43,683 nt of DNA from Planctomycetes bacterium GWF2_42_9 (lineage in GTDB: Bacteria > Planctomycetota > Phycisphaerae > Sedimentisphaerales > UBA12454), in contig MHYA01000003.1 of NCBI GenBank assembly GCA_001825675.1, positions 1-43,683 of the forward strand, read 5' to 3'. This document shows, one piece after another, positions 7,328-30,835 of the stretch. Position 1 is the first letter of the stretch, and each line of letters starts with the position of its first letter. A program made the position numbers and the translations under genes. The notes under the pieces are model-generated. The model was given only the letters and a program-made list of their open reading frames with translations. It ran no database searches and was not told where the DNA came from.

Positions 7328-9082
7328 ATGAATGAGATGAAACTTATAATTTATGGAATTTATTCGCAGCTAATATTATCTACCTGCGTTTTTGGGGTGA
7401 TTAATGTAAAAGATTATTCCGCCAAGGGAGATGGCATTACTGATGATACAAATGCCATTCAAGCTGCTTTTGATGCTCAACGCGAAGGGACGAAGAGCAC
7501 GGTTTATTTTCCTGCCGGGAATTATTTAGTGAGCGATACGTTGAAAATGTATATGCCGGATGTGAGCGGCGAATCATTTCTTAATACAAAAATTATTCAG
7601 CAGCAAAAAGATAAAGATATTTTTAATGGTGAATATGCATGGCGGGGACAAATAAGAAATTTGACATTTATTGGCGGCGCAAAGCAGTTGAATCTGCGAA
7701 ATATCCGTACTGACCAGGGAATGATGTGTGTTGAGCAGTGCAGTTTTACAGATTCTTCAGATTTTGCGATTTATATGGCGCCGCAAAGCAATCCAATGCA
7801 TTTTATAATCAGGGAATGCCATTTCGGCAACTGTGCACAAGTATTATATACTGTTTGTGACTGGACGACATTCAGCGATTGCTGGATTACAACAGCGCGT
7901 ATGGAAAACAAAGCCGCCATTGAGGCTCGCGGGGATAAACTTCTTTGCGAAAATATTATCGGAGTTCCGATAGTTACCGGGAAAAATGACCGATGGATAG
8001 ATTTTTACGGAAGTGAAGGCGGGAATCTGCTTACTTGTAAAAACTTTCGATTTGGAGGCGAGTTTGGAGGTACTACACCAGTATATAATTTCACAAAATT
8101 GGATAAAAACATGGCCGGCGGTGGTATTGTATTGGAAGATTGCCGCATCAGTGCCGGAGGAGGTGTAAAAAAGTGTGCCATTTATTGCGAAGAGATACCG
8201 AACATGATTGTGATACAGAATTGTGTTCTTCATGTTCCGGCTTTAATTTTATCTCCCAAGATCAATTTATCTGAATATTTTAAAAATATTCCCGAAGGTT
8301 TATTATATTATGATTTACTTGGAAACGTTTCTTTGAGCCGTAATAATGCTCAAGCCATTTCCTTAATGGATGCCGCTAAAAGCAGAGATACTTCACCTGA
8401 AGCAATAGCGGGACAGTTAGACAGCCAACAAACACAAATCGCACTTAAAAAAATAATTACAAAGATTGAACAACTTGAAGACCAATTACCTGCTGATACG
8501 CAGTTCAATGGTCACAAGATGAAAACAGATAAGTTTGAATATATCGATATAAATTTGAATACTCATATATGGGATATGAATGTTTTGATGTCTCCTACCG
8601 TTCATTCAAACAATGAATATATGGAAATGGCACAGCTTGGAGATGATATAGTCTTTATGCGTCGTGCACCTGGATTGTGGCCAAGTGTTATTGTACGTGA
8701 TGTGGAAGTTGATGTTGAAAAAACTCCTTTTATTAGTTGGAGACAAAAAGATCCCGGCAATAATCCCTTACCAAATGAATATAAACTCAGGAATGAGACA
8801 AATAAGTTAGACCCTAATATTATTATGCCGAGCGGTTATGCAATAAGAGTATTCAATCATCAAAGCCAAGAATCAGTATTACTGCATGAGATTCATACTC
8901 CTCCGTGGTATGACTATCGTGCTTATGATTTACGTAAAGCATTAAGTATCAACAAGGGTAAAGTGTTAATTGATATCATTTATTATCCTCTTGGTGTCTA
9001 CATTACAGGCCGTCCCGGAAGCGGTCATGCAATACCTCCGGAATATCAAATCATTGATTTTATCAGACTCGAAAGTGAGTGA
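7328..9082 (+). CDS. Secreted right-handed beta-helix protein, pectate-lyase/rhamnogalacturonase-like
   Basis: A 584-aa protein. The ATG at 7328 was chosen because GATGAGG ends 6 nt before it; an in-frame ATG at 7316 overlaps that site. The signal peptide covers about residues 1-22. The N-terminus has the pectate lyase superfamily 3 (PF12708) entry motif: INVKDYSAKGDGITDDTNAI, then YFPAGNYLV. Repeated short strands with Cys and Asn follow through residue about 320, as expected for a beta-helix. The last ~200 residues are unassigned. Members cleave or bind acidic or pectin-like glycans, but the fold alone does not fix the activity. It opens the long co-directional catabolic cluster and is probably its extracellular depolymerising or binding component. 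Confidence 0.75.
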   Translation: MNEMKLIIYGIYSQLILSTCVFGVINVKDYSAKGDGITDDTNAIQAAFDAQREGTKSTVYFPAGNYLVSDTLKMYMPDVSGESFLNTKIIQQQKDKDIFNGEYAWRGQIRNLTFIGGAKQLNLRNIRTDQGMMCVEQCSFTDSSDFAIYMAPQSNPMHFIIRECHFGNCAQVLYTVCDWTTFSDCWITTARMENKAAIEARGDKLLCENIIGVPIVTGKNDRWIDFYGSEGGNLLTCKNFRFGGEFGGTTPVYNFTKLDKNMAGGGIVLEDCRISAGGGVKKCAIYCEEIPNMIVIQNCVLHVPALILSPKINLSEYFKNIPEGLLYYDLLGNVSLSRNNAQAISLMDAAKSRDTSPEAIAGQLDSQQTQIALKKIITKIEQLEDQLPADTQFNGHKMKTDKFEYIDINLNTHIWDMNVLMSPTVHSNNEYMEMAQLGDDIVFMRRAPGLWPSVIVRDVEVDVEKTPFISWRQKDPGNNPLPNEYKLRNETNKLDPNIIMPSGYAIRVFNHQSQESVLLHEIHTPPWYDYRAYDLRKALSINKGKVLIDIIYYPLGVYITGRPGSGHAIPPEYQIIDFIRLESE

Positions 9083-9089
9083 AAAGATA

Positions 9090-11192
9090 ATGTATGTGAA
9101 AAGTGCAAAAACTACTATGTTAAATTATAATGAAGTTCACAACGGCACAGGTGATAAGCTTTTATTTAATCCTAATTCGGTTAATTATATTCTTCGGTAC
9201 TATTTTCCATATTGGTCGGCAGAAAAGAAAATAAAAGAGGTAATAGAATTTTGCGAAACAACAGGTACTAAATATGTGATGTTTGTATGTGGATACCAGC
9301 ACATGGGCTGGAATATGATACCTTTGGACGTGGCGCGACTTGAGACCGAAAAATTTATCTATGCACGTAAAGAACTTGAAAAGCATGACATAAAACTTGG
9401 ACTCGATATGGGGGTGACTTACGGGCATCATCAGAACCGCTGGGACCATAGAGATAAATTTCCAGACATCAAATATTGGAAGACAGATATTAAAGGCCAT
9501 GCTGATTACAGCAGTCCGTGTCCGGAAGACATTAATCTTAAAAAACATGTTAAACAAGTCTATCAGATTTACGCTCATTGTGAGCCTGAATACATATATA
9601 TTAATGATGATTTGCGTTTTGATGTGTCAGATAATATGTGGGGATGTTTTTGTACTAAACACATTACCTTATTTTCGGAGCTTACCGGTAGGCAGTGGAA
9701 TTGCGAAGAATTAAAAAATGCTCTTTACGGAGACCATAATATTCGCAAGCAATGGATACAAATGCTTGGAAAATGCGTTGTAGAATATGCTCGTGATTTA
9801 ACAGTTGCGATTCATGGAATTAATCCAAAGATTAGAATGGGTATGATGGTTCCAACTGTTCACCTTTTGCCGATATTTGGCCATCATTTAACAAATGTCC
9901 TGGATGCTCTTGATGGAAATGTAAAGCCTATAGTTAGACCTTGCATAGGTCCGTATCAAGATAGTAATCGACGTGAGATTGCAGGTGGTATTATCTATAT
10001 GGAATTGGTCAAGCATTTTCTTACCAATAAAAATGTGGAATATACTCCTGAAATTGAAACTGCACCGTTTACCAGATTGTCCAAAAGTATGACTGTGGTT
10101 AGATTTCACATAGCTCAAGCGATTTTGAATGGTATGACGAATCCTGCAATTGCTCCAGCCAGCTATGTAGGTGATCCGGTAGATATAGAACCTGAATATA
10201 TTAAAAATCTTCCTGTAGATAAGTTGTTCTACGATAGTCTCTGCAAGATGGGATTTAGCACTCCGGGAAACAAAAAAGGTATTCAATTGGTATATGATTT
10301 TAATTCAGCTAAAGAGTCAAAGGCAAAAATAAAATCGCCTCATGACCTTGCATGGTCATCGTTTGTAACTGCAAAAATTCTTGGAAGTCTTGGTATTTGC
10401 TATACGCTTGATGAATCGCCTGTAAAATTAATAACGGGTAAATTATTCAGTGCCATTTCTAAGAAAAGGATTGAAGATATTCTAAAAAAGGGAGTAATTT
10501 TAGATGCTGAGGCCGCAGAGGCACTAATCGATTTAGGGTATAGTTCTGATATCGGCATAAATATTGGGAAAGAGCCTGAATATTGGATGGCGGAAGAGTG
10601 TGTCGACGCAGAGTTCAACGGCATATATAAAGATACATACATACCGCTCAAAGCAATAAAAGATTCAATTTATAAGTTGCTGCCATTCGAAAATGCAAAA
10701 GTTATTTCTCAAATTGTTGATGCCGACCGCCAGCGGGTATGTTCTGGTATTGTTTTGTATCAGAATTCCCGTGGAGGCAGAATTGCTATTTTACCATATT
10801 CAATATCTGCTGATGATGGCGATAATCGCCATTTATTGTGCTATCAGCGAAGATATATGTTTAGAAAAATAATTGAATGGATGAATGCAGATGTTCTGCC
10901 TGTCTTTGTAGAAGAGCCTACGGATTTTCTTGTTCAGTGCTGGGATAACGGCCAAGTGCTGACTGTGTGTCTCACTAACCTTTCCTATGATTCATTTTCT
11001 GAAGTAAAGGTCATATTTACTCATAAAGAAAAACTACACTTTGATGAGGCAGTTTATGTATCTGATAATGGCACATTGAATAAATTGCAAATTTCCCTTA
11101 TTCAATCAAACGAAGGGGATGGTCATATTTGTAAAATAAAACATGAGTTTAGTGCTTTCAGGCCTCTGATAATGCGCATACCATATGTGTAG
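9090..11192 (+). CDS. TIM-barrel glycoside-hydrolase-like protein, function unknown
   Basis: A 700-aa protein without a signal peptide. I start it at 9090, 7 nt after the preceding stop, with a GTGAGTGA ribosome site. A frame extending back to 8970 would overlap the upstream gene by 113 nt. The N-terminal half has an alternating strand/helix pattern of a beta/alpha barrel (KYVMFVCGY, IKLGLDMGVTYGHHQNRW, EPEYIYINDDLRF, IRMGMMVP, VEYTPEIETAPF). It carries a CFC...C pattern near residues 188-207 that is seen in several bacterial GH-like barrels. The C-terminal part (GRIAILPYSISADDGDN, then a strand-rich tail) resembles the trimerisation and beta-sandwich regions of GH42-like beta-galactosidases. 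I cannot assign a family. An intracellular glycosidase acting on imported oligosaccharide fits the context. Confidence 0.5.
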   Translation: MYVKSAKTTMLNYNEVHNGTGDKLLFNPNSVNYILRYYFPYWSAEKKIKEVIEFCETTGTKYVMFVCGYQHMGWNMIPLDVARLETEKFIYARKELEKHDIKLGLDMGVTYGHHQNRWDHRDKFPDIKYWKTDIKGHADYSSPCPEDINLKKHVKQVYQIYAHCEPEYIYINDDLRFDVSDNMWGCFCTKHITLFSELTGRQWNCEELKNALYGDHNIRKQWIQMLGKCVVEYARDLTVAIHGINPKIRMGMMVPTVHLLPIFGHHLTNVLDALDGNVKPIVRPCIGPYQDSNRREIAGGIIYMELVKHFLTNKNVEYTPEIETAPFTRLSKSMTVVRFHIAQAILNGMTNPAIAPASYVGDPVDIEPEYIKNLPVDKLFYDSLCKMGFSTPGNKKGIQLVYDFNSAKESKAKIKSPHDLAWSSFVTAKILGSLGICYTLDESPVKLITGKLFSAISKKRIEDILKKGVILDAEAAEALIDLGYSSDIGINIGKEPEYWMAEECVDAEFNGIYKDTYIPLKAIKDSIYKLLPFENAKVISQIVDADRQRVCSGIVLYQNSRGGRIAILPYSISADDGDNRHLLCYQRRYMFRKIIEWMNADVLPVFVEEPTDFLVQCWDNGQVLTVCLTNLSYDSFSEVKVIFTHKEKLHFDEAVYVSDNGTLNKLQISLIQSNEGDGHICKIKHEFSAFRPLIMRIPYV

Positions 11193-11227: not shown

Positions 11228-13198
11228 ATGAATTTTGATTGGATTGACTGGTCTATAGTTGCGGGTTTTCTGCTTTTTATAATAGTTATAGCGAATTATA
11301 CCAAGCAATATACAAAAACCGCCAGCGGCTTTATTGCAGCAAATCGGTGTGCGGGAAGATATTTGCTGACTATTTCTGAGGGCATAGCGTCTGTGGGAGC
11401 ATTTGGTCTTATCGCTTGTTTTCAGGAAACTTATCAGGCGGGCTTTACACACATCTGGTGGAAAAATATTGGAGTTCCTATTGGACTGGCTATTGCCTTA
11501 TCCGGGTGGGTGATTTATCGGTTTCGACAAACACGTGCCCTGACATTAGCAGAGTTTATGGAACGAAGATACAGCAAGCGTTTTCGGATTTTTATGGGGC
11601 TTCTAATATTTAGTTCAGGGGTGCTTAATTTTGGGATTTTTCCTGCCGTCAGCAGTCATTTTTTTATCCATTTCTGCGGGTTACCTGAAACAACTTCAAT
11701 CATGAATTTCTATATTCCAACCTATCCTTTGGTAATGGCGGGATTATTGCTTATATCTCTTTATTTTATATTTATCGGCGGCCAAATAGCAGTAATGATA
11801 ACAGATTTTGTGCAGGCTTTTTTCTGCTATATTGTATTTATAATTATAATTTCTTATATTTTTGTCTCGCTGGGATGGAAGCCTATTTCTGAAGTTTTAA
11901 GTATGCCGGAAAATGTTCATATGGTTAACCCTCATCAAGGCAAAAACATTCCAGATTTCAATGTTTGGTATTATATAATGCTAACGGTGTTAAGTTTATA
12001 TCAGACCAGGGCATGGCAGGGTACGCAGGGTTTTAATAGTGCTCCATTAACCCCGCATGAAGCAAAGATGGGAGGCATAATAGGAGCGATAAGGGGTTTG
12101 AGCCTATCTTTGCTTGTGCTTATTCTGCCAATCGCAACATATACGATATTGAAGCATCCTGATTTTGGTTTTATTGCTGATAAGGCCAATAACGTTCTAA
12201 ACAGCGTACCGGATAAGGAAGTTAGAGGGCAAATAGTTGTACCGGTTGTTATGAGTTATTTTTTGCCGAAAGGTTTGTTGGGTTGTTTTGCGACAGTGTT
12301 TTTGGCAGCGGTTATAGGTAATCAAGGAACCTATCTGCATTCGTGGGGAAGTATTTTTGTGCAGGATGTAGTTATGCCGTTACGCAAGAAACCTTTCACT
12401 AATAAACAACACATGCTTTTTCTGAGACTGGCGATTGTCGGAGTTTGTGTTTTTGTTTTCTTTTTTAGTCTCCTGTGGCATCAGACAGAAGCAATTTTGT
12501 TATGGGTACAGATAACCGGAGCGATTTACCTCGGAGGTGCAGGCGCGGTTATAGTCGGCGGACTGTACACAAAAAAAGGTACAACGGCGGCTGCTTATGC
12601 TTCTATGATTACCGGCTCTGTTCTTGCTTTATCCGGAATAATTATAAAACAAATTTATCCTGATTTCTTTTTAAATAGTATGCAAATGAGTTTTATAGCG
12701 GCAGCAGTTGCTTGTTTGGTATATGCACTGGTTTCTTTTTTAGCACCTCAAAAAAAGGAATCTGATATTGATAAGCTGCTTCACAGGGGTGAACACGCGG
12801 TGGCGGCTGATGTTGTGGCTGGGAATACTAAATCAGGCGCTATATGGGGTAAGTTAGGTTTAGACAAAGAATTCAATAAAAGGGATAAATTCATATTCTT
12901 TTTTGTTCTTAGTTTTACCTCTTTCTGGTTTATTGTGCTTGTGGCGGAAACGATTATTAATTTATTCTATAACTTTAAAACCATAGCCTGGATTAGATAT
13001 TGGCAGTTCTATGTCATATTAATGTTTGTTTCTAGTATCGTTATTACAATTTGGCTTGGTATTGGGGGCATGATGGATATCAAGAAACTGTTTGAGCGTT
13101 TAAGACAAATTAAACATGACGAACAGGACGATGGGTGGGTAGCTCCAGAAGCTGTTTCGGATACTTCTGTGGAAATTTGCGAAAAAGAAAAGGTTTAA
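11228..13198 (+). CDS. Sodium:solute symporter (SSS) family transporter
   Basis: A 656-aa inner-membrane protein with about 14-15 hydrophobic segments. It has the SSS pattern: an N-terminal helix followed by SGFIAANRCAGRY, then GIASVGAFGLIACFQETYQAG, LTLAEFMERRYSKRFR and GQIAVMITDFVQAFFCYIVF. It lies 35 nt downstream of the hydrolase-like gene and 22 nt upstream of an oxidoreductase gene. It is the only obvious transporter in the cluster, so it is the likely importer of the sugar or breakdown product. The C-terminal ~110 residues add two further membrane helices and a charged tail, as in the larger SGLT-like members. Substrate unknown. Confidence 0.85.
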   Translation: MNFDWIDWSIVAGFLLFIIVIANYTKQYTKTASGFIAANRCAGRYLLTISEGIASVGAFGLIACFQETYQAGFTHIWWKNIGVPIGLAIALSGWVIYRFRQTRALTLAEFMERRYSKRFRIFMGLLIFSSGVLNFGIFPAVSSHFFIHFCGLPETTSIMNFYIPTYPLVMAGLLLISLYFIFIGGQIAVMITDFVQAFFCYIVFIIIISYIFVSLGWKPISEVLSMPENVHMVNPHQGKNIPDFNVWYYIMLTVLSLYQTRAWQGTQGFNSAPLTPHEAKMGGIIGAIRGLSLSLLVLILPIATYTILKHPDFGFIADKANNVLNSVPDKEVRGQIVVPVVMSYFLPKGLLGCFATVFLAAVIGNQGTYLHSWGSIFVQDVVMPLRKKPFTNKQHMLFLRLAIVGVCVFVFFFSLLWHQTEAILLWVQITGAIYLGGAGAVIVGGLYTKKGTTAAAYASMITGSVLALSGIIIKQIYPDFFLNSMQMSFIAAAVACLVYALVSFLAPQKKESDIDKLLHRGEHAVAADVVAGNTKSGAIWGKLGLDKEFNKRDKFIFFFVLSFTSFWFIVLVAETIINLFYNFKTIAWIRYWQFYVILMFVSSIVITIWLGIGGMMDIKKLFERLRQIKHDEQDDGWVAPEAVSDTSVEICEKEKV

Positions 13199-13220: not shown

Positions 13221-14519
13221 ATGGCTATGAAAAAAAATAATAAAATCAATGAAATTAGGATCGCTTGCATAGGTGCCGGATGTTCTGGTGTTGGTCAGAT
13301 GATGTTGCTCGAAAGGTTTCTTCCTGGCTGTTGTGTGGCTTTCTGTGATTTAAATCGAAATTATTTTGATGCAGCTATGGAAGAATATTTTGGCCAAGGT
13401 AGTACGGCGATGGCAGGTGATTTTAAAAGTGATGCACAAAACCTTCGTTCAGATTTTCGTAATCTTCAATTTTACACAGATGTAGATGAGATGTTCAAGA
13501 AAGAAAACATTAATACCGCAATCATCGCAACTTTTTGCAGTTTACATGCAGATATGGTTGAAAAATGTGTGAAACATGGTGTTAATATTTTGCTTGAAAA
13601 GCCAATAGCTATTACCGAAGGAGATGTTGAAAAGGTGTGGCGGCTGCTAAAGAACTATCCAAAAGTTACCACGGTAAATTTTACGATGCGAGGCGCTCCA
13701 GTTTCTGTAGCTGCCAAAGAGCATGTGCGGAATGGGCATATAGGAAAAATTGTATCTGTTCAGTATTCCAATAATGTTCATTATGGCGATTACTATTTTC
13801 GCAGATGGATGAGAATAAAAGAAAATATAGGGAACCTTTTTCTACAAAAAGCAACACATGACCTCGATATCATAAATAGCATAATTGGTTTAAAGCCTGT
13901 AAAAATAGCGGCCTTTGGTTCTCGTCTGGTGTATGGGGGTGATATGCCCAACGACTTGACCTGTGATATATGTGATAAAAAAATGATATGTCCGATGAGC
14001 GTGCACAAGCGGTTTCTCGACGCAGCCAGGCCTTTAACAGCAAAGCATGAACGTAAATGCGTTTATGCAAAAGAAATAGATATTGATGATAATCAGGTGA
14101 TGATAATTCAGTATGAGGGCGGTGTTACAGCTACATATTCACAATCATTTAATGCGCCGCCGCAGGGAGGCGGTAGAGGCGGGACTTTCATCGGCACAGA
14201 TGGAATCATGGAATTAAAGTATTATGGTGACTACGAGGAAAATTCAAAGAATGAGATAACAAAAGGCAGCAGCCAGCTTAATATAACTAAATTTAATGCT
14301 AAACCTTCTTCCAGAATTCATGAAGTGTATGATTGGGCAGGGCATGGTCATTTTGATGGTAATGAATATGGCATGCTCGGGAAGATAGATTTGCTCAAAG
14401 GTGGAAGCAGCGATGTGGCCGGAACCGTAGAAGAAGGTTATATCAGTGCCAAAATGTGTTTAGCTGCTCAAAAATCAATAGAAACAGGGAGTGTGGTCAG
14501 CCTGAATTTAAATATGTAA
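13221..14519 (+). CDS. Gfo/Idh/MocA family oxidoreductase with Cys cluster
   Basis: A 432-aa NAD(P)-dependent dehydrogenase-like protein. The Rossmann motif IACIGAGCSGVGQ lies at residues about 12-24 and the EKP motif (LLEKPIAI) at about 126-133. The substrate domain includes ATHDLDIIN, the usual catalytic region. An insertion with CDICDKKMICPMS followed by HERKCVY (about residues 251-277) gives a CxxC-x5-C...C arrangement, suggestive of a structural metal site in this subfamily. Relatives oxidise or rearrange sugars, inositols and glycosides. Its place after the SSS transporter suggests it acts first on the imported product. Substrate unknown. Confidence 0.85.
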   Translation: MAMKKNNKINEIRIACIGAGCSGVGQMMLLERFLPGCCVAFCDLNRNYFDAAMEEYFGQGSTAMAGDFKSDAQNLRSDFRNLQFYTDVDEMFKKENINTAIIATFCSLHADMVEKCVKHGVNILLEKPIAITEGDVEKVWRLLKNYPKVTTVNFTMRGAPVSVAAKEHVRNGHIGKIVSVQYSNNVHYGDYYFRRWMRIKENIGNLFLQKATHDLDIINSIIGLKPVKIAAFGSRLVYGGDMPNDLTCDICDKKMICPMSVHKRFLDAARPLTAKHERKCVYAKEIDIDDNQVMIIQYEGGVTATYSQSFNAPPQGGGRGGTFIGTDGIMELKYYGDYEENSKNEITKGSSQLNITKFNAKPSSRIHEVYDWAGHGHFDGNEYGMLGKIDLLKGGSSDVAGTVEEGYISAKMCLAAQKSIETGSVVSLNLNM

Positions 14520-14549: not shown

Positions 14550-15746
14550 ATGGACATGAATATCCATTCCCAAATGAATAATCAAACGGAAGTAGTAGCA
14601 ATATATTTCCCAAGCTGGCATACCAATGACCACTATCAGGCATGGTATGGACAGGGATTTACAGAATGGGATCTGATAAAAACAACTAAGCCGTTATATC
14701 CCGGACATCATCAGCCGAAAATTCCGACATGGGGTTATTTTGACGAGAGCGATCCTGCGTGGTCTGCCAAAGAGATTGATATTGCTGTTGAACATGGCGT
14801 TACAACATTTCTTTTCGATTGGTATTGGTACAGTGGCGTGAAAATTATGGAAGAGGCTTTAGAGAATGGTTTCTTGAAAGCATCTAATCGACATAAAATG
14901 AAATTTGCATTGATGTGGGCAAATCACAATTGGGGTTCATGGCCCGCGATTACAGGCATTCCCGGAATGAACTCGGCGGTTAATCAAAGTGCATCGCTTT
15001 GGCTGCCTATTCGGCATAGCTTGGAAGATCTTGACCGAGTTGTGGATTATTGCTGTGAGCATTATTTCGATGAACCGAACTATTGGAAGATTAAGGGCAA
15101 ACCATATTTTGCAATCTTTGATATTGCCGAATTTTCGAAACAACTTGGCCGCGATAAAGAATTCCGAATTGGTTTGGAACGAATGAACAAACGGGCTCAA
15201 AAGAATGGTTTGCCGGGTATTTTCTTTAGCGCTAACATCGGTTGTTGCAATGATAATATTTATTGTTGCGGTTGGGGCAGAGTGCCTGATGCTGAAGTGA
15301 TAGGTTTTGAAAGTGTTTTTGCATATAATATTGTGCGCACAACTGAATACGACTCACTTCCAGATTCCAGACCGAGTGTGAAATATGATGAGGTAATTAA
15401 GTCGCATCAATATTGCTGGGAACAAATTGAAAAAGGTGGCCTGCCGCATCATCCTGTTGTAACTGTAGGCTGTGATGTTTCTCCTCGCTGGCATCGAGGT
15501 GTTTCATTGCCTATGGATTTTCGTAAATTAGCGTATGAGCCAATTATAGAAGGTAATACTCCAGAAAAGTTTGGACAATTATGTAGTTTGGCTTTCAAAC
15601 AGGTGAGAAAAAACAAGTTAGAACCAAAAGCTATTTTCATTAATGCATGGAACGAATGGTCGGAAGGTATGTATTTGCTGCCTGAAAAGAAATATGGAAA
15701 TGGTTATCTTGAAGCTATTAGAACTGCTATGGCAGAAGAACTATAA
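14550..15746 (+). CDS. WbsX-like (GH99-like) domain protein
   Basis: A 398-aa cytoplasmic protein matching the WbsX family (PF14307): EVVAIYFPSWH near the start, YGQGFTEWDLIK, KPLYPGHHQPKIP, FLFDWYWYSG, FALMWANHNW, and FINAWNEWSEGMYLLP at the C-terminus. The family is named as glycosyltransferase but has a GH99-like barrel, and in catabolic clusters it may act as an endo-glycosidase. Trp-rich motifs and conserved Glu in NAWNEW and GFTEW are intact. It sits 30 nt after the oxidoreductase gene and 28 nt before a UroD-like gene. I favour a hydrolytic role because the surroundings are catabolic, but this is inference. Confidence 0.8.
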   Translation: MDMNIHSQMNNQTEVVAIYFPSWHTNDHYQAWYGQGFTEWDLIKTTKPLYPGHHQPKIPTWGYFDESDPAWSAKEIDIAVEHGVTTFLFDWYWYSGVKIMEEALENGFLKASNRHKMKFALMWANHNWGSWPAITGIPGMNSAVNQSASLWLPIRHSLEDLDRVVDYCCEHYFDEPNYWKIKGKPYFAIFDIAEFSKQLGRDKEFRIGLERMNKRAQKNGLPGIFFSANIGCCNDNIYCCGWGRVPDAEVIGFESVFAYNIVRTTEYDSLPDSRPSVKYDEVIKSHQYCWEQIEKGGLPHHPVVTVGCDVSPRWHRGVSLPMDFRKLAYEPIIEGNTPEKFGQLCSLAFKQVRKNKLEPKAIFINAWNEWSEGMYLLPEKKYGNGYLEAIRTAMAEEL

Positions 15747-18528: not shown

Positions 18529-19275
18529 ATGCGATATGAAATAATGTTTCCAGACCAGTTGCGGCAGGCGATAGATAAAAATATACCAGCGGTAATGGCA
18601 ATAGGAGTGATAGAATATCATAGTGAACATTGCTGTATTGGCGTTGATACACTTGTTGTTACGAGAGCTTTGGATGTTCTCGAAAAAGAAATGGAAATAG
18701 TTATTCTGCCACCTTTTGTTTATGGCACTGCAAGTTATGCAGTATCATCACCAGAGAGAAAAGGAACAATCAGTGTTAATTCGCATACGGTGTACCTATT
18801 TGCCAAAGACCTCTTTTTAAATTTGCTTAGGGTAGGTTTAAGAAATATCCATCTGTTCATACACCATCAAAGTGAGAGTTTCACGGCAGGCATGCCCACC
18901 GACCTTGCCTTAAAACTAGCGTCAAAAGAGTCTATATTTGAATTTTTGGAAAAACAGCGTGGCGAAGGCTGGTGGGGCAGCGAAAAGATGCGGGATTATT
19001 ATAAACAGCATGAGAAAGGCTCTGATCCTTTTAGCTGGATACAGATCCATCCGTTTATGGATGAGCAGACACAGAAACAATTTCCAATAGATCACGCAGG
19101 CAAGCAGGAAACTTCTTTAATGATGGCGTTTTGTCCTGAAGGTTTGGATATGAAACGCCACACTAAAGAACACTGGTTTGCAGAATCAGCCAAAGATGCA
19201 AATATGGATTATGCAAATGACGCAAAGAAAATGATTTTAAATAAAATTAAAAGAATCCTGTACAACAATGAATAA
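18529..19275 (+). CDS. Creatininase-family amidohydrolase-like protein
   Basis: A 248-aa protein of the creatininase family (PF02633). The metal-binding entry motif is IEYHSEHCCIGVD, giving Glu, His at +2 and Asp at +11 with the same spacing as in creatininase. SPERKGTISVNSHTVY matches the following strand/helix. Where most members have NGHGGN or NGHYEN, this protein has IHHQSES, so the second metal site is altered. Family members hydrolyse cyclic or linear amides such as creatinine and FAPy intermediates. The stop overlaps the next start by 8 nt, indicating translational coupling. Located between the ASRT-like gene and a hydrolase-like gene; the combination with M24 proteins suggests a shared nitrogen-containing substrate. 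Confidence 0.75.
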   Translation: MRYEIMFPDQLRQAIDKNIPAVMAIGVIEYHSEHCCIGVDTLVVTRALDVLEKEMEIVILPPFVYGTASYAVSSPERKGTISVNSHTVYLFAKDLFLNLLRVGLRNIHLFIHHQSESFTAGMPTDLALKLASKESIFEFLEKQRGEGWWGSEKMRDYYKQHEKGSDPFSWIQIHPFMDEQTQKQFPIDHAGKQETSLMMAFCPEGLDMKRHTKEHWFAESAKDANMDYANDAKKMILNKIKRILYNNE

Positions 19276-20992: not shown

Positions 20993-23116
20993 ATGAAGTC
21001 TGATTATAAAATTCAAATAAAAAGGGCTTTATTAATTGTATTGTATTGTACAGCTTTATCTTTAGGCCAAAACGATATTGAAGTGAATGAAGAGTGGCAC
21101 ATATATTCTCCATTATCATCTTCTTCGCCAGAAAACTTTGCTGCAAAAGAGTTTCAAACTCTTTTTAGGCAGGCTACAGATATTAATTTGCCTATATCGA
21201 CAGAGAAGGAATTTGGAAAATTTATTTTTATTGGGCATAACAAATTAGCTGATTCTAATGAAATTAAGATAGTAAATTATGGCGAAGAGGATTTTCGTAT
21301 AATTATAAGTGATGACCATATATACATTGTTGGGGGCCGTCCACGAGGCACGCTTTATGGCGTATATACGTTTCTCGAAGATTATGTTGGGGTTAAGTTT
21401 TTAACTGCTGAACATACATATATCCCTAAAATAAAAAAGTCATTTTTGCTTAAAACCATTGATCGTAGTTATCACCCCCCATTGATGTATCGTAATGTGT
21501 ATAGTGGTGAGTTTATCTTGCCTTCCGACGAGCAGACAAAATTATTTCTTGTTCGTTCACGAATAAACGCGTCAGATCAAGTTTTGCCGGATTATTTAGG
21601 CGGTGTATCTTCGTTTAAGTTAATAAATCATAGCTTTTGGAGTCAGTTGCCGACAAGCGAATTTGGTACCCAACATCCTGAATATTATGCCTTATTTAAT
21701 AGCAGACGACTGTCTAATGTGAAAAACGACGCTTCAGAAACACAGCTTTGTTTGACGAATCCAGATGTTCTAAAACAGGTTATTGATGCAGTTGAATCTG
21801 AAATTATAGCAAGGCCAAACATTAAAACTATTTCTGTCAGTCAGAATGACAATTACTTCTATTGCCAATGTGAAAATTGTAGCAGAATTGATGATGCAGA
21901 AGGTTCACCGATGGGTTCTTTGCTCAAACTTGTTAATAATGTTGCGGAGTATACTAAAAATAAATACCCAGAATATAAGATTGGGACATTAGCATATCAG
22001 TATTCACGAAAACCTCCTAAGGACATTCGTCCTCACGAGAATGTTCAAATTCAATTGTGTTCTATTGAATGCTGTATAATGCATCCAATAGCTGATGCCA
22101 ATTGTCCCCAAAATATTGCATTCTGCCAGGATTTAAATAGCTGGAGCAGGATTTGTGACCATATATATATATGGAATTACAATACAAATTTTCAGGATTA
22201 TTTGCTTCCGTGCCCTAATCTTTATGTGATCGCGCCAAATATCAGGTATTTCTTATCACGCGGGGCTAAAGGAATCTTTATGCAGGGGGCATACAACACT
22301 CTTGCATCTGAGTTTTCAGATTTAAGAAATTATATCACGGCTCGTTTACTTTGGGATCCAAATCAGGATACGGAAAAACTCATAGATGAATTCCTTAGAT
22401 TACATTATGGGAAATCGGCTGATCCAATTAAACAGTATATAACGTTTTTTCATAACAAAGCTTGTTCGAGCGGCATGCACACGAGTCCTTATGGAAAAGC
22501 GGCAGATTATGCGATTGATGACGAAGTAATTGAATTTGGGAAAAAAGCTTTTCGAGATGCTATGGCAATAGCAAAAAATGAAGATTTTAAGAAACGAGTT
22601 GAGAAAGCTTCTATATGCATCCTCAGAGTGGAGTTGGAGCCAATATGGTATATTAACCAGTCATCTAATCTCACTCCGAACCAGATTGAGATGTTAATGC
22701 CCAGTGTTAGTCAGTTTCTTTTAACATGCAAGGAGAATGGCGTAAATCTGAATAATCAAAATGAAGTCCAGGCTCTTTTTTTTATGTTGGCAACTCAATT
22801 TGAAAATGTCAGTTATCCTAAACCGGCTAACCTGGAAAAAGCGATTCCTAAACTTCGTTCTGTTGTTGCTGGCTACTTATCGAAATGTACGGAATTAAAT
22901 ATATCCCAGCCATATTTGGCGGCTGTCGATTTATATCAGAGAATCTTGGTTCAAAGTGCAATGCCAATTACTGATTTAGAAATATTTAAACCTCGCGTTG
23001 AACATTTCTTCAAATTATGTGACAAATATAATATTAGCCGAGCGGGTGAGTGTGTATTTATTTCGCAGAAATCTGAAGAGTTGAAAAAACTTTTAAAACA
23101 ATCCACAAAAAATTAA
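20993..23116 (+). CDS. Secreted DUF4838 protein, alpha-glucuronidase-like
   Basis: A 707-aa exported protein with a signal peptide (basic start, then LLIVLYCTALSLGQ). Residues about 25-140 match the GH67-type N-terminal domain (SPENFAAKEFQTLFRQATD, FIFIGHNK, IYIVGGRPRGTLYGVYTFLEDYVGVKF). DUF4838 (PF16126) follows with SVSQNDNYFYCQCENCSRID, IGTLAYQYSRKPP and QIQLCSIECC. GH67 alpha-glucuronidases remove uronic acids from xylan; DUF4838 proteins are related to them, but their activity is poorly established. The ATG follows the previous stop directly. A signal peptide in mid-cluster indicates that part of the degradation is periplasmic or extracellular. Confidence 0.8.
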   Translation: MKSDYKIQIKRALLIVLYCTALSLGQNDIEVNEEWHIYSPLSSSSPENFAAKEFQTLFRQATDINLPISTEKEFGKFIFIGHNKLADSNEIKIVNYGEEDFRIIISDDHIYIVGGRPRGTLYGVYTFLEDYVGVKFLTAEHTYIPKIKKSFLLKTIDRSYHPPLMYRNVYSGEFILPSDEQTKLFLVRSRINASDQVLPDYLGGVSSFKLINHSFWSQLPTSEFGTQHPEYYALFNSRRLSNVKNDASETQLCLTNPDVLKQVIDAVESEIIARPNIKTISVSQNDNYFYCQCENCSRIDDAEGSPMGSLLKLVNNVAEYTKNKYPEYKIGTLAYQYSRKPPKDIRPHENVQIQLCSIECCIMHPIADANCPQNIAFCQDLNSWSRICDHIYIWNYNTNFQDYLLPCPNLYVIAPNIRYFLSRGAKGIFMQGAYNTLASEFSDLRNYITARLLWDPNQDTEKLIDEFLRLHYGKSADPIKQYITFFHNKACSSGMHTSPYGKAADYAIDDEVIEFGKKAFRDAMAIAKNEDFKKRVEKASICILRVELEPIWYINQSSNLTPNQIEMLMPSVSQFLLTCKENGVNLNNQNEVQALFFMLATQFENVSYPKPANLEKAIPKLRSVVAGYLSKCTELNISQPYLAAVDLYQRILVQSAMPITDLEIFKPRVEHFFKLCDKYNISRAGECVFISQKSEELKKLLKQSTKN

Positions 23117-23137: not shown

Positions 23138-24532
23138 ATGGCTGAATTAAAATTAAAAAAAGTAGATGTCAAAAATATCCTGAACATTGGTTTCCCTTTA
23201 GAGGTCGAACCTGAGATCCCTTTATTGGTATATGATAATCGAATAAAAAAATTGCGGACGTTGATGAAAAAAGAGGGCTTTTCAACGGTTCTGATTTATG
23301 GAGACAGGGAACATTTGGGGAATATTATGTATTTTACTGGGTATGACCCAAGATTTGAAGAAACCTTGTTGATAGTACATGATGATGATTCTGAATTAGT
23401 TCTTATAGTTGGTAATGAGGGATATGTATATTCGAATGTAAGTCCTGTCCCGCATCGAAAACTTTTATTTTCTCCTTTTAGCCTTGCTGGTCAGCCCTGT
23501 AACAGTACCGCCGACCTTGCATCTGTTTTGAAAGATTTTATTCATAATACTAAAAGTGTTGGACTTGTTGGGTGGAAATCATTTTCAGCCTCAAAAACCA
23601 AGAACTTTGCAGTTCCTCATTTCATTGTGAATGCGATAAGTCAATTGATGGATATAACCAATCTCAAAGATGTAACTGACTGGTTGATGGATCCGCAGAA
23701 TGGCCTTCGCAGTTGCTATGAAATTGAACAATTGGCAAAATTTGAATGGGTTTCAACATGGTCTTCGGAGTCCGTATTCAGAGCTATTTCGAAGTTGCAG
23801 GATGGACAATCCGAATATGAAATTGCATCCAATATGCAACTTAATGGTTATCCTCATGCACATCATCTTTGTATTACTTCAGGTGATAGATTAAAAAGTT
23901 TTTTCGCAGGGAGTCCTTCAAGTAAAAAAGTAAAAACCGGAGAACCTTTTTTTATTGCTCTTGGATTAAGAGGCAGCAATACCTGTCGTGCAGGTTTTTT
24001 GGTACACGATGCGTCAGAGCTTCCAGAGAATATTCGGGATTATGCCTCAAAAGTTGTTATCCCCTATTTTAAAGCTATCAGGAGTTGGTACCAAAAACTT
24101 TCTATTGGAACAAATGTTTCCGAATTACATCGACTTGTGCATAGCGAACTAAAAAAACCACTCTTTAATATCGGGCTGAACATCGGGCACCAGATTGATT
24201 ATGAAGAATGGATGAATAGCCCTGTTACGGAAAACAGCACAGTTGAATTAAAATCAGGTAATTATTATCAATGTGACTTCTTCCCGGCTGTCGAGGGTGA
24301 TTATTTTGGCACTTTTGCTGAAGATGGTGTGGCCTTGCTGAATTCATCTGAACGGCGTGAATTCGAAGTAAAATATCCTCAGGCATATAAGAGAATTCGG
24401 TATCGCAGAAATATTATGAAAAATATCTTGGGAATTGAATTATCCGAAGATGCAATGCCTTTTTCAAATATATGTGGTTTTATATTTCCTTACTTATATG
24501 ATCTGAATCTTGTTCCAAGTGCAGCGATCTAA
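23138..24532 (+). CDS. Second M24-fold protein lacking metal ligands
   Basis: A 464-aa protein with the creatinase/prolidase arrangement. Residues 30-170 form the N-terminal domain (DNRIKKLRTLMKKEGFSTVL, NIMYFTGYDPRFEETLLIV) and residues about 190-440 the pita-bread part. The expected metal-binding segment reads EPFFIALGLRGSNTCRAG, without either Asp. IGHQIDYEEW replaces the usual HGIG region, and FAEDGVALL stands where the last Glu-containing strand is expected. It is therefore probably not a metallopeptidase. It is longer than the paralogue at 16970 and clearly divergent from it. The ribosome site TAGGAG is strong. Two such proteins in one cluster suggest two steps, or a catalytic and a non-catalytic partner. 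Confidence 0.65.
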   Translation: MAELKLKKVDVKNILNIGFPLEVEPEIPLLVYDNRIKKLRTLMKKEGFSTVLIYGDREHLGNIMYFTGYDPRFEETLLIVHDDDSELVLIVGNEGYVYSNVSPVPHRKLLFSPFSLAGQPCNSTADLASVLKDFIHNTKSVGLVGWKSFSASKTKNFAVPHFIVNAISQLMDITNLKDVTDWLMDPQNGLRSCYEIEQLAKFEWVSTWSSESVFRAISKLQDGQSEYEIASNMQLNGYPHAHHLCITSGDRLKSFFAGSPSSKKVKTGEPFFIALGLRGSNTCRAGFLVHDASELPENIRDYASKVVIPYFKAIRSWYQKLSIGTNVSELHRLVHSELKKPLFNIGLNIGHQIDYEEWMNSPVTENSTVELKSGNYYQCDFFPAVEGDYFGTFAEDGVALLNSSERREFEVKYPQAYKRIRYRRNIMKNILGIELSEDAMPFSNICGFIFPYLYDLNLVPSAAI

Positions 24533-24573: not shown

Positions 24574-25644
24574 ATGGATATGGATAAAATAGATAACCTT
24601 GAATTGTGGAAAAGACGAAGAAAAATACTAAATCAGAAACTTTGGGACCTATTACTGGCAGGAAATATCAAACGCCCGGAAAAACCAAAATATGAAATTA
24701 TTGCCAAAGGTGAACAAGCGGAAAAAATGATAGAGGAAAATCTTAAATATGTTTTTAAGGCCTTTCCATCCGAGAAAAAACTATATCCAGAGTTAACTTA
24801 TAAATGGCATGGACCTGTAACATGGGATACATTCATAATATCTTATCCGGGCTGGCCGGGCGAGCCATCGCAAAGAGCGATATTAAGAATACCAAAAAGC
24901 AGGAATAATCCACTTCCTGCGGTACTCTGCTTTCATGGACATGGAAGGGGTTGTCTGCTGGGAAAGTCAGAAATGGACTACATTGCTTTGCCTTTAACTG
25001 CGAAAGGATACATTACTCTTTGTCCGGATGCGACAAGATGGGAAGACAGACGCGATAAGACTTATGAAAAAGCTGAAATTAATGATTTTAAGGGTATGGC
25101 GTTTTATTCTGAGAGAAACCTTGCTATGCCGCTTTTATATAAAGGGCAAACTTTGTTAGGAGTCATAATATGGGAGCACATGATTGCAGTTGATGTACTT
25201 CAATCTATGGATTTTGTCGATTTAAATAAAATAGGCACAATAGGTACGAGTATGGGAGGAGTGCAGAGCTTTTGGCTGTCGGCAATGGATAAGCGTATCA
25301 CATGTGGCGTTGAAAGTTGTGGCGTCAGTTCATTTGAAGTTTGGTCACAGGAAAAAACTTTAAATGCTTTAGTAAATTTCATTCCGCATATCTTGAGACA
25401 TACCGATTGGGGCGAAATAGGTGGATTGATTGCTCCAAGACCTTTTATGTGTTTAGATGCCGCACAGGATGGATTTTTCCCATTAAGAGGAATAAAGAGT
25501 ACTCATAAAATTATGTATAATATATTTAATCTTTATAATGCATCAGAAAAATTTAAAAAGCATATTCACACAGGAGGTCACCTTTTTATAGATAAGCATA
25601 TTGAACTTGCTTTTAAATGGCTTGATTATTGGCTAACCAAATAG
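24574..25644 (+). CDS. Alpha/beta hydrolase, acetyl-esterase/dienelactone-hydrolase-like
   Basis: A 356-aa cytoplasmic alpha/beta hydrolase. The triad is visible as Ser in GTSMGG (about residue 226), Asp in AAQDGFFP (about residue 293) and His in GGHLFID (about residue 333). The oxyanion-hole region is CFHGHGRG. The long N-terminal segment and the LIAPRPFM motif before the Asp resemble the acetyl xylan esterase-like subgroup found in Planctomycetota and Bacteroidetes glycan clusters. Removal of acetyl or other ester decorations from the sugar is the likely role. AGGGA precedes the ATG by 6 nt. Confidence 0.75.
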   Translation: MDMDKIDNLELWKRRRKILNQKLWDLLLAGNIKRPEKPKYEIIAKGEQAEKMIEENLKYVFKAFPSEKKLYPELTYKWHGPVTWDTFIISYPGWPGEPSQRAILRIPKSRNNPLPAVLCFHGHGRGCLLGKSEMDYIALPLTAKGYITLCPDATRWEDRRDKTYEKAEINDFKGMAFYSERNLAMPLLYKGQTLLGVIIWEHMIAVDVLQSMDFVDLNKIGTIGTSMGGVQSFWLSAMDKRITCGVESCGVSSFEVWSQEKTLNALVNFIPHILRHTDWGEIGGLIAPRPFMCLDAAQDGFFPLRGIKSTHKIMYNIFNLYNASEKFKKHIHTGGHLFIDKHIELAFKWLDYWLTK

Positions 25645-25690: not shown

Positions 25691-26806
25691 ATGAATAGTA
25701 GAGAACGCGTATTAACTGCTTTGCGACGACAGCAGCCTGATAAAGCACCTTATGAAATACCGAGGTTCAATCGTGCTGCATGGAAACGCTTTAACATTGA
25801 GACAGGCAGTACCAATCCCGATGAATATTTTGGTGTGGAAACTGATTTTGAATGGGTGGATTTTGCCCCCACAGATGTCAATATAAAAGAACGCTATCTC
25901 CTTTATCACGAACTTCCGCCAAATGTTATTTATAAAAAAGATGACAGCGATTTACATAAGGACGACTATACATTCAATGAATGGGGTACAGTATTTATCG
26001 CCGGAACCGATCCAGCTTACGACCACTTTGTCGCACCCGCCAAAATGATGAATGCTGCGGGACTTAATGATATCGAAAAATATCCCATGCCGGATTTTAT
26101 GTCTGATTATCGTCACAATCATTTTGAAAAAATAATAGCAGGCATACACGGTCGCCAACGCGCTTCCGTTATTAATATGGAAATGACAATTTTTGAAGTA
26201 TCGTGGCAAATACGTGGTCTCGATCAGCTTTTGACTGATTTTGCGATTGGAACAGATATTGCCGAGTGTCTGTTAGATAGAGTAACAGCTGTTTCGGTTG
26301 CAAAAGCTCAGCGTATCGCGCAAGCAGGTGTGGATATCATCCGTTTAGGTGATGACGTAGGAATGAAAGATAGAATGATAATGTCCCCCGATATGTGGCG
26401 ACAATGGCTTAAACCTCGTCTTGCTAAGGTAATTTCTGCAGCAAAAAAAAATAAGCCTGATGTTCTTATATGCTATCATAGCGATGGATTTATCGAACCG
26501 ATTATCCCCGAGTTGATTGAAATTGGCGTTGATGTACTCAATCCTTTGCAGCCGGAATGTATGGATCCTGCAAAAATAAAAAAATTGTATGGCGATAAGC
26601 TTGCCTTTTGGGGAACTATTGGCATTCAGCAAACACTTCCAGTCGGAACTCCAAAAGATGTTGAAGATGAAGTCCGACTGCGAATCGAGACGGTTGGCAA
26701 AGGCGGAGGATTATTGATAGGGCCTACTCATGTGATAGCTCCTGAAGTGCCGTATGATAATCTTCGTGCTTTTGTTGCAGCTGTTAAAAAATATGGTACA
26801 TATTAA
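25691..26806 (+). CDS. Second uroporphyrinogen decarboxylase-like protein
   Basis: A 371-aa UroD-superfamily protein. It opens with NSRERVLTALRRQQPDKAPYE. The C-terminal half has CYHSDGFIEPIIPELIEIGV, NPLQPECMDP, and LIGPTHVIAPEVPYDNLRAF. The His of HSDG and the Cys of PECMDP are at the positions where MtaA/MtbA-type methyl-transferring members bind zinc, so a methyltransferase-like reaction is plausible. It is only distantly similar to the gene at 15775. The AAGGA ribosome site is good. It follows the esterase gene by 46 nt and precedes GH97 by 70 nt. No corrinoid-binding protein accompanies it in the window. Confidence 0.75.
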   Translation: MNSRERVLTALRRQQPDKAPYEIPRFNRAAWKRFNIETGSTNPDEYFGVETDFEWVDFAPTDVNIKERYLLYHELPPNVIYKKDDSDLHKDDYTFNEWGTVFIAGTDPAYDHFVAPAKMMNAAGLNDIEKYPMPDFMSDYRHNHFEKIIAGIHGRQRASVINMEMTIFEVSWQIRGLDQLLTDFAIGTDIAECLLDRVTAVSVAKAQRIAQAGVDIIRLGDDVGMKDRMIMSPDMWRQWLKPRLAKVISAAKKNKPDVLICYHSDGFIEPIIPELIEIGVDVLNPLQPECMDPAKIKKLYGDKLAFWGTIGIQQTLPVGTPKDVEDEVRLRIETVGKGGGLLIGPTHVIAPEVPYDNLRAFVAAVKKYGTY

Positions 26807-26876
26807 AACATAAATCTCAAAAAAGTATAGGATACATTCTGACTTTGCATTAAAATACAGAAAGGAAGCGTTTTTT

Positions 26877-28865
26877 ATGATAATTCAGAAAATATGTTGT
26901 GGCAATTTATTAAACAACATTATCACGAAAACTATTTTCTTAATGTATATTCTATCCCTAAGCCAAATAGTCGTTGCAAAAAATATACATCTGCAATCTC
27001 CAGACGCCAGAATTGAAGTTAATATTGATATCAATGATGTGCTAACTTATTCAGTTTCATACAATAAAAAACAAATTATTCTGTTATCTCCTATTTCTAT
27101 GACCTTGGAAAAATATGGTCAAATCGGCAAAAATCCTGAACTTGTTAATGTGCATACAGATACAGCAGATAGAGTTTTATACCCTGTTGCCCCGGTGAAG
27201 AGCAAAAGTATAAGAGATAATTACAATGAAACCATTTTAGATTTTAAGGGCTCTTACAGTATCGCATTTCGTGCCTATGATGACGGCATAGCATACCGTT
27301 TCATCCTGGATATTGATAAAAAAATAAAAATCAATAGGGAAGAAGTGCATTATAATTTTCCAAAAGGATTAAAGATTTATTTCCCGTCAGAACCAAATTT
27401 AGTCAGTCACTATGAAGCATATTATGACTATGCCGAGCTGAAAGATGTAAATGGCAAACAATGTTTATTGCCAGTTTTACTTTTGAAGGAAGATGACGTA
27501 AGAATGCTTATAACAGAAGCGGATATAAACGATTATCCCGGCCTTTATCTATATGGCTCGAACAATTCGCTCATTGGCCGCCATCCCAATCGCGTTCTCA
27601 AATATTCAACAGATGAAAAGGGTTTAGTCAGCACAATTATAAAGAGAGGCGATTACATAGCAGAGACTAATGGTAAAAGAACATACCCTTGGCGAGTGGT
27701 CGTCATTGCAGAAAATGATGCAGATCTGCTGATGAATGAGTTGGTATACAAACTCGGCCGAGAGCAGGAAATCAAAGATACTTCGTGGATAAAGCCCGGC
27801 AAAGTTGCATGGGATTGGTATAATGCCAATAACATTTATGGTGTGGACTTTCGTGCGGGTATTAACACTAATACGTATAAATATTATATTGATTTCGCTT
27901 CACAATATAATCTTCAATATGTTATTTTTGATGAAGGCTGGTATGTTGGGCGGGATGTTTTTAAAATTAATCCTGATATGAATGTGGATGAACTTTTTAA
28001 ATATGCAAAACAGAAAAATGTCGGAATAATTTTATGGGTTGGATGGAAAGCTTTTGATGATAAATTTGAAGATGCTATCAGGCAATTCGCATCCTGGGGT
28101 GCAGCTGGTATCAAGGTTGATTTTATGATGCGTGATGACCAGGATATGGTAAACTATTTTGAAAAGATAGCAAAAGAAGCGGCTAAGCATCATATGTTGG
28201 TAGATTTTCACGGCAGCTATAAACCTGATGGTATGCAGCGAACATATCCAAACGTACTTACCAGAGAAGGTCTAAAAGGTCTTGAGAATAATAAGTGGGA
28301 TGACCGATTAACTCCTGAGCATTGTTTAACTTTGCCGTTTATTAGAATGGTTGTCGGTCCGATGGATTTTACTCCTGGCGCAATGAGAAATGCCCAGCAG
28401 GAGGATTTTCAAAAGATTTTTAACTGTCCAATGAGTCAGGGCACACGATGCATGCAGCTTGCAATGTATGTAATTTATGAGAGCCCGTTACAAATGCTTG
28501 CTGATAGCCCATCTACTTATATGAGCGAGCCGGAAATTATGGATTATCTCTCGAAAGTGCCGACTGTGTGGGATGAGACAAAAATTATAAAAGCTAAAAT
28601 CTCAGATTATATCGTACTTGCTCGACGCAATGGTAGCGAATGGTATGTAGCCGCAATGACAGATTGGACTCCGAGAGATTTTGAAATAGATTTGTCATTC
28701 TTTAAAGATGGCAATTATCAGTTGGATATTTATCAGGATGGTATCAACGCAGATAGATATGCAGAAGATTATAAACATTTGAAAAAAGATGTAACAAATA
28801 AAGATACATTGAAGATTAAACTTGCACCTGCCGGAGGGTTTGTCGCAAGATTTAGAAAGATATAG
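26877..28865 (+). CDS. Secreted GH97 alpha-galactosidase/alpha-glucosidase-type glycosidase
   Basis: A 662-aa exported enzyme with an N-terminal signal peptide (about residues 1-34, ending VVAK). Residues 37-290 form the GH97 N-domain (SPDARIEVNIDIND, FRAYDDGIAYRF). The barrel starts at KPGKVAWDWYNANNIYGVDF. GIKVDFMMRDDQ places an Asp at residue 415, the position of the nucleophile in retaining alpha-galactosidase-type GH97; inverting SusB-like members lack it. LTREGLKGLE (461-470) carries the candidate acid/base Glu. The calcium-site region FTPGAMRN is present. Last gene of the plus-strand cluster. A mechanism assignment from one residue is suggestive, not proof. Confidence 0.85.
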   Translation: MIIQKICCGNLLNNIITKTIFLMYILSLSQIVVAKNIHLQSPDARIEVNIDINDVLTYSVSYNKKQIILLSPISMTLEKYGQIGKNPELVNVHTDTADRVLYPVAPVKSKSIRDNYNETILDFKGSYSIAFRAYDDGIAYRFILDIDKKIKINREEVHYNFPKGLKIYFPSEPNLVSHYEAYYDYAELKDVNGKQCLLPVLLLKEDDVRMLITEADINDYPGLYLYGSNNSLIGRHPNRVLKYSTDEKGLVSTIIKRGDYIAETNGKRTYPWRVVVIAENDADLLMNELVYKLGREQEIKDTSWIKPGKVAWDWYNANNIYGVDFRAGINTNTYKYYIDFASQYNLQYVIFDEGWYVGRDVFKINPDMNVDELFKYAKQKNVGIILWVGWKAFDDKFEDAIRQFASWGAAGIKVDFMMRDDQDMVNYFEKIAKEAAKHHMLVDFHGSYKPDGMQRTYPNVLTREGLKGLENNKWDDRLTPEHCLTLPFIRMVVGPMDFTPGAMRNAQQEDFQKIFNCPMSQGTRCMQLAMYVIYESPLQMLADSPSTYMSEPEIMDYLSKVPTVWDETKIIKAKISDYIVLARRNGSEWYVAAMTDWTPRDFEIDLSFFKDGNYQLDIYQDGINADRYAEDYKHLKKDVTNKDTLKIKLAPAGGFVARFRKI

Positions 28866-30829: not shown

Positions 30830-30835
30830 ATCCAG

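Follow-up and report, generated by a model that had tools for sequence, protein, structure and literature searches.

Two groups of described systems offer a first comparison for the locus reported here. The L-fucose cluster of Campylobacter jejuni (Cj0480c-Cj0489) encodes a short-chain dehydrogenase/reductase (SDR), an amidohydrolase, an altronate-dehydratase-type enzyme, a DHDPS-type aldolase and FucP-type genes (PMC11365321), while ASRT proteins are proposed to bind sugars and to act as stand-alone allosteric sensors (PMC2739507). Here we describe a polysaccharide locus of Planctomycetes bacterium GWF2_42_9 (GenBank assembly GCA_001825675.1, contig MHYA01000003.1) and, in particular, the four-gene core at 16976-20992 in which a metal-less M24 protein, an ASRT, a creatininase-like protein and an unclassified glycosidase follow one another. 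The window, i.e., the whole stretch of DNA that was analysed, comprises 43,683 nucleotides and is contig C3 of a 4.86-Mb genome, 92% complete and 7% contaminated. A first, sequence-only reading had proposed a 21-kb cluster within it as an undescribed system; we find that the four-gene core is conserved, that the whole 21 kb is not a conserved unit, and that the core is probably a conserved, previously undescribed sugar-catabolic module. As that reading supposed, no paper describing a pathway with this gene set was found in the open-licence part of PubMed Central, which also held nothing relevant on creatininase or M24 in glycan or fucose gene clusters.

The four-gene core and its copies

The core genes, numbered as in the window, are:
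16976-18133, +: W13, M24 (pita-bread) protein without metal ligands (reported start of the open reading frame, 16880)
18146-18511, +: W14, ASRT, a small beta-sandwich protein and predicted sugar-binding sensor
18529-19275, +: W15, plausible metal-dependent hydrolase with the creatininase fold, from a subfamily of its own
19268-20992, +: W16, unclassified TIM-barrel glycoside hydrolase

A search of the genome for ASRT returned six loci, one of them decayed, and the order M24 - ASRT - creatininase-like - W16 was found in four loci, on contigs C3, C38, C70 and C155. The M24, ASRT and creatininase proteins are 82-93% identical among the four copies; for W16, the identity between the window and the other copies is only 53-54%. 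The ratio of non-synonymous to synonymous substitutions (dN/dS) between copies is 0.02-0.08 with dS of ~1 or saturated, therefore these are old duplicates held under strong selection. We infer that the M24, ASRT and creatininase proteins are likely to share one metabolic task, with the glycosidase varying with the glycan. In the C155 copy (L010, 10056-11218) the M24 gene is split into two open reading frames by an in-frame stop or frameshift, through decay or an assembly error, although the ASRT, creatininase and W16 are intact. An Amidohydro_2 gene comes after W16 on contig C38; a PDB sequence search with its product gave no match.

With ~10 M24 and eight creatininase genes in the genome, ~0.07 pairs within 2 kb would be expected and four were observed. 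On this count, the 23 of 31 loci and the order-wide profile described below, a chance assembly of the core was rejected. The relatives are mostly metagenome-assembled genomes, as is the genome of the window itself; since the core is seen in many assemblies, faulty binning is ruled out as its origin.

Recurrence in other genomes

A scan of 84,980 species genomes used the creatininase alone as query and returned 31 loci, so that all neighbour frequencies are conditional on the presence of creatininase. A W13-type M24 protein (48-87% identical) is adjacent or close in 23 of the 31, usually directly upstream, and the pair is present in six phyla (Planctomycetota, Bacteroidota, Lentisphaerae/Kiritimatiellae, Desulfobacterota, Omnitrophota and Spirochaetes), the groups among the loci being Planctomycetes, Bacteroidales, Lentisphaerae, Kiritimatiellae, Desulfobacterales, Omnitrophota and Spirochaetes. 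Eight loci have no M24, including L040-L043, which are cut near the creatininase or give partial matches only. ASRT lies inside the M24-creatininase trio in L013, L064 (genome G524) and, at a contig end, L040, and nearby in L038; L013 is the same module locus carried by G229, a genome of the same family as that of the window.

Within the order of the window, four of 161 genomes have the creatininase, and each of them belongs to the seven that have M24 (hypergeometric ~1.3e-6, with two of the four genomes being one genus). In G213 and G218, which belong to one genus, M24 sits with ASRT and W16, and the G218 locus (L070), from another family of the order, is ASRT-M24-W16 plus an SSS symporter and a DUF4838 protein. 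ASRT and M24 adjoin without creatininase in L061, L062 and L065 as well as in L070. The set is rare in the phylum, where 6 of 392 genomes carry M24 and 3 carry the creatininase, and this patchy spread suggests horizontal transfer. The sequence-only reading had staked its proposal on the accessory genes occurring together elsewhere, and this is what was found for M24 with creatininase, as for M24 with ASRT.

Sugar context of the module

The Bacteroidales loci carry two GH29 alpha-L-fucosidases, a GHL6/GH42-like enzyme, a FucP/NagP-like permease and DUF6786, and in Planctomycetes RhaT lies between M24 and creatininase. In L022, from Bacteroidales, the homologues of W15 and W13 are encoded at 10001-10741 and 8753-9916. 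Amidohydrolases (lactonase-type, Amidohydro_2) are present in the Arcticibacter and Parapedobacter loci, the former also with an altronate-dehydratase-type enzyme, and one protein of L065 (UroD-M24-ASRT) has a C-terminal domain of the fucose-isomerase-like kind. The pair in Desulfobacterota is surrounded by genes for an ABC transporter, BtpA, an M29-like protein and an FGGY kinase. Across 85 neighbours in an unweighted scan, MFS proteins were counted 14 times, GH29 and LacI-type sensor domains six times each, and DUF6786 and GHL6 five times each. Neighbours of these kinds (fucosidase, RhaT, FucP/NagP-like permease, isomerase, kinase, lactonase and dehydratase) point to 6-deoxyhexoses or stereochemically related pentoses as the substrate class, with no single sugar proven.

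The N-containing or O-methylated substrate of the sequence-only reading is not supported by this context, the neighbours elsewhere being deoxysugar genes and not nitrogen or methyl-transfer genes. Close to that idea is the catabolism of an N-acylated amino sugar, in which W15 and W13 would remove acyl groups or cut the amide or amidine of an N-modified (deoxy)amino sugar. Cleavage of C-N bonds is the classical activity of both folds; a PIG-L-like (LmbE) protein, read by eye, takes the place of the creatininase after UroD-ASRT on contig C85 of the same genome; a nitrilase-family gene stands beside the module on C70 and a polysaccharide deacetylase in L025; the permeases score best against NagP, and the fold of W16 resembles GH20 hexosaminidases. 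However, no enzyme of amino-sugar metabolism, of the NagA/NagB type or otherwise, is among the scanned neighbours, fucosidases are the glycosidases that recur, and the permeases fall far under the NagP cut-off (265 vs 625 bits), and we consider this explanation rather unlikely, if worth weighing.

The Desulfobacterota version of the locus, with ABC transporter, BtpA, M29-type 'peptidase', FGGY kinase, M24 and creatininase, was seen in L032, L033 and L035, and is reminiscent of the peptidase-like genes in the sgc, frv and ypd sugar operons of E. coli. BNR (sialidase-like) proteins are encoded near the module in two unrelated genomes (L011, 17301-18428; L037, 14947-16083).

The M24-fold proteins

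W13 has the pita-bread fold by sequence (PF00557, 5.6e-27; Creatinase_N, 2e-12). In its family, across 17 aligned homologues, N,S,H,D,E stand at the metal-ligand positions that are D,D,H,E,E in M24 metallopeptidases such as prolidase and aminopeptidase P, and W13 thus does not have their five-ligand set. The conserved M24 histidine (His232 in creatinase) is replaced by Ile in an alignment with 3q6d; creatinase and ectoine hydrolase, which have lost the metal site and kept this histidine, differ from W13. The AlphaFold2 (AF2) model of W13 (pLDDT 90) matched prolidase, creatinase and ectoine hydrolase (DoeA) alike in Foldseek, at a TM score of ~0.82, and the ranking did not separate the three as a single nearest fold.

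That all 17 homologues have lost the metal ligands and the M24 histidine raises an alternative in which W13 and ASRT are both non-catalytic, a pseudo-enzyme and a sugar-binding tetramer that respond to the sugar supply by regulating or scaffolding the transporter, the creatininase and the glycosidase. The adjacency of ASRT and M24 in the four loci without creatininase fits this explanation, as does the proposed role of ASRT as a stand-alone allosteric sensor (PMC2739507). However, ~80 columns are invariant among W13 homologues across the six phyla, many of them polar (R234, Q247, Y257, S260, H324, E332, D353, R364 and E366), which suggests a working site, and metal-free M24 enzymes exist, namely creatinase and DoeA. 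The numbering of H324, D353 and E366 counts from 16964. We judge a purely non-catalytic pair to be unlikely.

A second divergent M24-like protein without metal ligands is encoded in the window:
23138-24532, +: W18, M24-like protein

W18 passes the Creatinase_N threshold (31.8 bits), its M24 match is sub-threshold (16.4 bits), and its metal positions, read by eye, are A,A,H,D,E. Both M24 proteins are thus without metal ligands, as the sequence-only reading had noticed. Homologues of W18 were found only in five other genomes of the order, all of one genus, where they lie outside this module, and W18 was dropped as a core member since, where this was checked, its homologues lie away from the module. 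Two further genomes of the order encode a W13-type M24 protein together with a second one, ~26% identical, and DUF6786 (L090, 8881-11283; L091, 5016-9370), next to RhaT or an SSS symporter, so that a doubled M24 recurs in sugar loci.

ASRT, creatininase-like protein and glycosidase

W14 belongs to the ASRT family (PF07100, 6e-27; 94 bits against a cut-off of 25) and matches 2ii7 and 1nc7. Of the published SHEshChhN motif it keeps His, Glu and Asn, with Cys replaced by Val.

W15 is recognised by PF02633 (2.4e-24), with creatininase 1q3k as its best solved match, and E29, H31, D40, H113, H189 and E194 are invariant in 17 homologues. Four of the five residues of the binuclear metal site of creatininase (E34, H36, D45, H120 and E122) align to E29, H31, D40 and H113 of W15, while the fifth aligns to Ser115, with Glu116 adjacent. 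Its score against the creatininase family TIGR04448 is 67 bits for a cut-off of 235, and the positions of the creatinine-pocket residues, Trp174 and Asp175, are occupied by Phe185 and Pro186. True creatinine degradation was set aside on this score and these pocket residues, and W15 is plausibly a metal hydrolase with a substrate other than creatinine.

No match to W16 was found in Pfam, NCBIfam or PDB sequence searches. Its AF2 model (pLDDT 91) has a fold resembling GH20C, GH138, GH89, GH84 and GH115 (E down to 2.6e-11, 9-11% identity, best-match TM 0.43-0.56 over the query), and homologues were found in ~20 loci. The protein is probably cytoplasmic, no signal peptide being evident by eye at its start.

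UroD-like proteins

Two UroD-like genes lie on either side of the core:
15775-16944, +: W12, UroD-like, a looser associate of M24 and ASRT (PF01208, 17.8 bits)
25691-26806, +: W20, UroD-like (MtaA/CmuA-like; PF01208, 5e-24)

W12 falls below the Pfam cut-off (17.8 vs 23.9 bits), and a 32% identical homologue in the same genome is clearly above it. A W12-type UroD (32% identical) lies between M24 and ASRT on contig C85 of this genome and on contig C13 of G524. The inclusion of UroD in the set by the sequence-only reading is weakly supported by these two cases, and makes UroD a looser associate; at the sensitivity used, no UroD was found in the 31 creatininase loci.

B12-dependent O-demethylation or methyl transfer by these proteins on an O-methylated sugar would find some encouragement in the weak match of W20 to the MtaA/CmuA family TIGR01463 (72 bits, well under the cut-off of 235). 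However, neither W12 nor W20 showed His-x-Cys in a motif scan, and B12-binding_2 was matched only twice in the genome against ~45 UroD-like genes, so that a methyl-transfer role is unlikely. On the motif, the corrinoid count and the missing co-occurrence, methyl transfer was dropped as an extremely improbable explanation, and an O-methylated substrate is likewise unsupported. The ~45 UroD-like genes in one 4.9-Mb genome represent a large family expansion. On contig C142 a decayed ASRT (~3000-3857, L012; frameshift/TAA) lies beside a UroD-like gene, near pectin-type beta-helix genes.

The surrounding cluster

The core lies within 15 genes, all on the + strand, that span 7316-28865, and every gene named in the sequence-only reading was recovered on that strand by Pfam search. 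The remaining members are:
7316-9082, +: W7, beta-helix, pectate-lyase-like protein (PF12708, 8e-19)
9090-11192, +: W8, unclassified protein (open reading frame from 8970, in-frame ATG at 9090)
11228-13198, +: W9, SSS sodium:solute symporter, likely importer (PF00474, 5e-14)
13221-14519, +: W10, Gfo/Idh/MocA oxidoreductase (PF01408 and PF02894)
14550-15746, +: W11, WbsX-like protein (PF14307, 3e-55)
20993-23116, +: W17, DUF4838 glycosidase-like protein (PF16126, 1e-96)
24574-25644, +: W19, AXE1/dienelactone-type esterase (PF05448, a weak 8e-6)
26877-28865, +: W21, GH97, likely retaining alpha-galactosidase (PF10566, 9e-107)

Junctions are mostly short or overlapping, the spacings from 11228 onward being 22, 30, 28, ~31, 12, 17, -8, 0, 21, 41, 46 and 70 nt; a 65-nt overlap ahead of W13 is only apparent and results from a start codon set too early, the homologues beginning at ~16976. 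Scans for promoters (51 vs 64.8 in shuffles) and terminators (16 vs 13.4) did no better than shuffled sequence. With carbohydrate-active enzymes linked to a sugar transporter, the cluster qualifies as a polysaccharide utilisation locus. W8 had no match in Pfam or NCBIfam. A 43% identical homologue of W9 is present in the ASRT-M24-W16 locus L070 and also on contig C155, and DUF4838-like genes occur in L070 and beside creatininase in L086. AXE1 is among the module neighbours in other genomes in 4 of 85 cases, and W21 scores 760 bits against NF053844 for a cut-off of 800.

So large and mixed a locus, in a genome with UroD-like genes everywhere and with the homologues of W18 lying outside the module in other genomes, could be an ordinary polysaccharide locus that has captured unrelated accessory genes with no shared function. 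The four copies of the core here, its presence in six phyla and the strong purifying selection contradict this for the core, and as an overall explanation it is very unlikely; W18, W20 and W11 may have been captured in this way.

Beyond the cluster, the opposite strand carries:
29133-31699, -: W22-W25, SDR dehydrogenase, two small paralogous proteins and DHDPS-family aldolase (PF13561 and PF00701)
32745-34076, -: class-III aminotransferase (glutamate-1-semialdehyde-aminomutase-like), the most upstream gene in a convergent row on this strand

Orthologues of W22-W25 (59-93% identical) adjoin the module on contigs C155 and C70, and the association thus extends past the coordinates first proposed. 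The two small paralogues (29916-30829, 145 and 159 aa, one weakly DUF6144-like) stand beside the SDR and aldolase in three loci.

Discussion

The most likely substrate class of the module is a 6-deoxyhexose (L-fucose or L-rhamnose type) or a related sugar, and we infer the reactions, their order and the role of the sensor as follows. The exported beta-helix, DUF4838, GH97 and esterase proteins would trim the glycan, the SSS symporter W9 would bring in a small sugar, and W16, probably cytoplasmic, would release a monosaccharide. W15 and then W13 would act successively on the freed sugar or its oxidised form, W15 by hydrolysis or opening of a lactone- or lactam-like sugar ring, by analogy with the creatininase fold, and W13 by metal-free hydrolysis or elimination, if it does not serve as a regulatory pseudo-enzyme. 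The ASRT W14 may sense the sugar or an intermediate. In this genome the SDR and the DHDPS-family aldolase could then yield pyruvate and an aldehyde, as happens in the pathway by which Campylobacter breaks down L-fucose.

The detailed chemistry of this scheme is doubtful. Taken together, a polysaccharide locus carrying an undescribed sugar-catabolic core that performs the proposed steps on a deoxysugar-type substrate has a little less than an even chance of being correct. More tentatively, we propose a new route of sugar breakdown whose central steps, on a deoxysugar-type intermediate, would fall to a hydrolase of the creatininase fold and to an M24 protein that is metal-free and no peptidase; it would have spread horizontally over at least six phyla and be coupled to a stand-alone ASRT sugar sensor in some lineages.

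Several observations weigh against this proposal. W13 may be no enzyme, given its loss of the metal ligands and the M24 histidine. M24 and creatininase are not strictly interdependent: L016, L023 (Arcticibacter svalbardensis), L036 and L037 (Parapedobacter indicus) have good flanks and creatininase without M24 nearby, three genomes of the order have M24 without creatininase, and G213 and G218 carry the creatininase on a different contig, next to a further DUF4838 protein (L086). ASRT is missing from most pair loci, and the aldolase and SDR accompany the module only within this genome. No single sugar enzyme is common to all loci, and the kinases are xylulokinase-like (L032) or a ribulokinase (L027), so that a pentose or some other sugar may be the substrate instead.

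When genes resembling peptidases or amidases occur in sugar operons, they usually receive a peptidase annotation and are then overlooked; in the present case, strong selection and conservation across phyla mark their linkage to glycan degradation. The missing enzyme function becomes directly testable with two small soluble proteins, and ASRT, whose role beyond the Anabaena rhodopsin system is still a prediction, gains a concrete metabolic partner.

Comparison with known systems

The predicted fold of W16 is like that of the hexosaminidase-type and pectin glycosidases GH20C, GH138, GH89, GH84 and GH115, to none of which it belongs by sequence. IolN (3-dehydro-scyllo-inosose hydrolase) provides a precedent for a creatininase-fold hydrolase in a sugar or polyol pathway; an inositol route for W15 was rejected on its score (38.6 bits vs a cut-off of 245), and no inositol genes lie near it. 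The ASRT/ASRAH sugar operons (TM1070) resemble the module in having a stand-alone ASRT gene within a sugar-metabolism operon, but there the partners are an isomerase, aldolase, kinase or ABC transporter, with M24 and creatininase not reported in the available part of the source (PMC2739507). The kinds of enzyme listed for the C. jejuni L-fucose cluster are also encoded near copies of the module, in this genome or in relatives; however, only the aldolase and SDR are near in the window, and the cluster as given in PMC11365321 has no M24, creatininase or ASRT. Creatinine degradation likewise has creatininase-fold and metal-free M24-fold proteins encoded side by side, but W15 scores far under the cut-off for creatininase and has neither the Trp nor the Asp of the pocket, W13 lacks the histidine shared by M24 proteins and creatinase, and the module is instead surrounded by glycosidases and sugar permeases.

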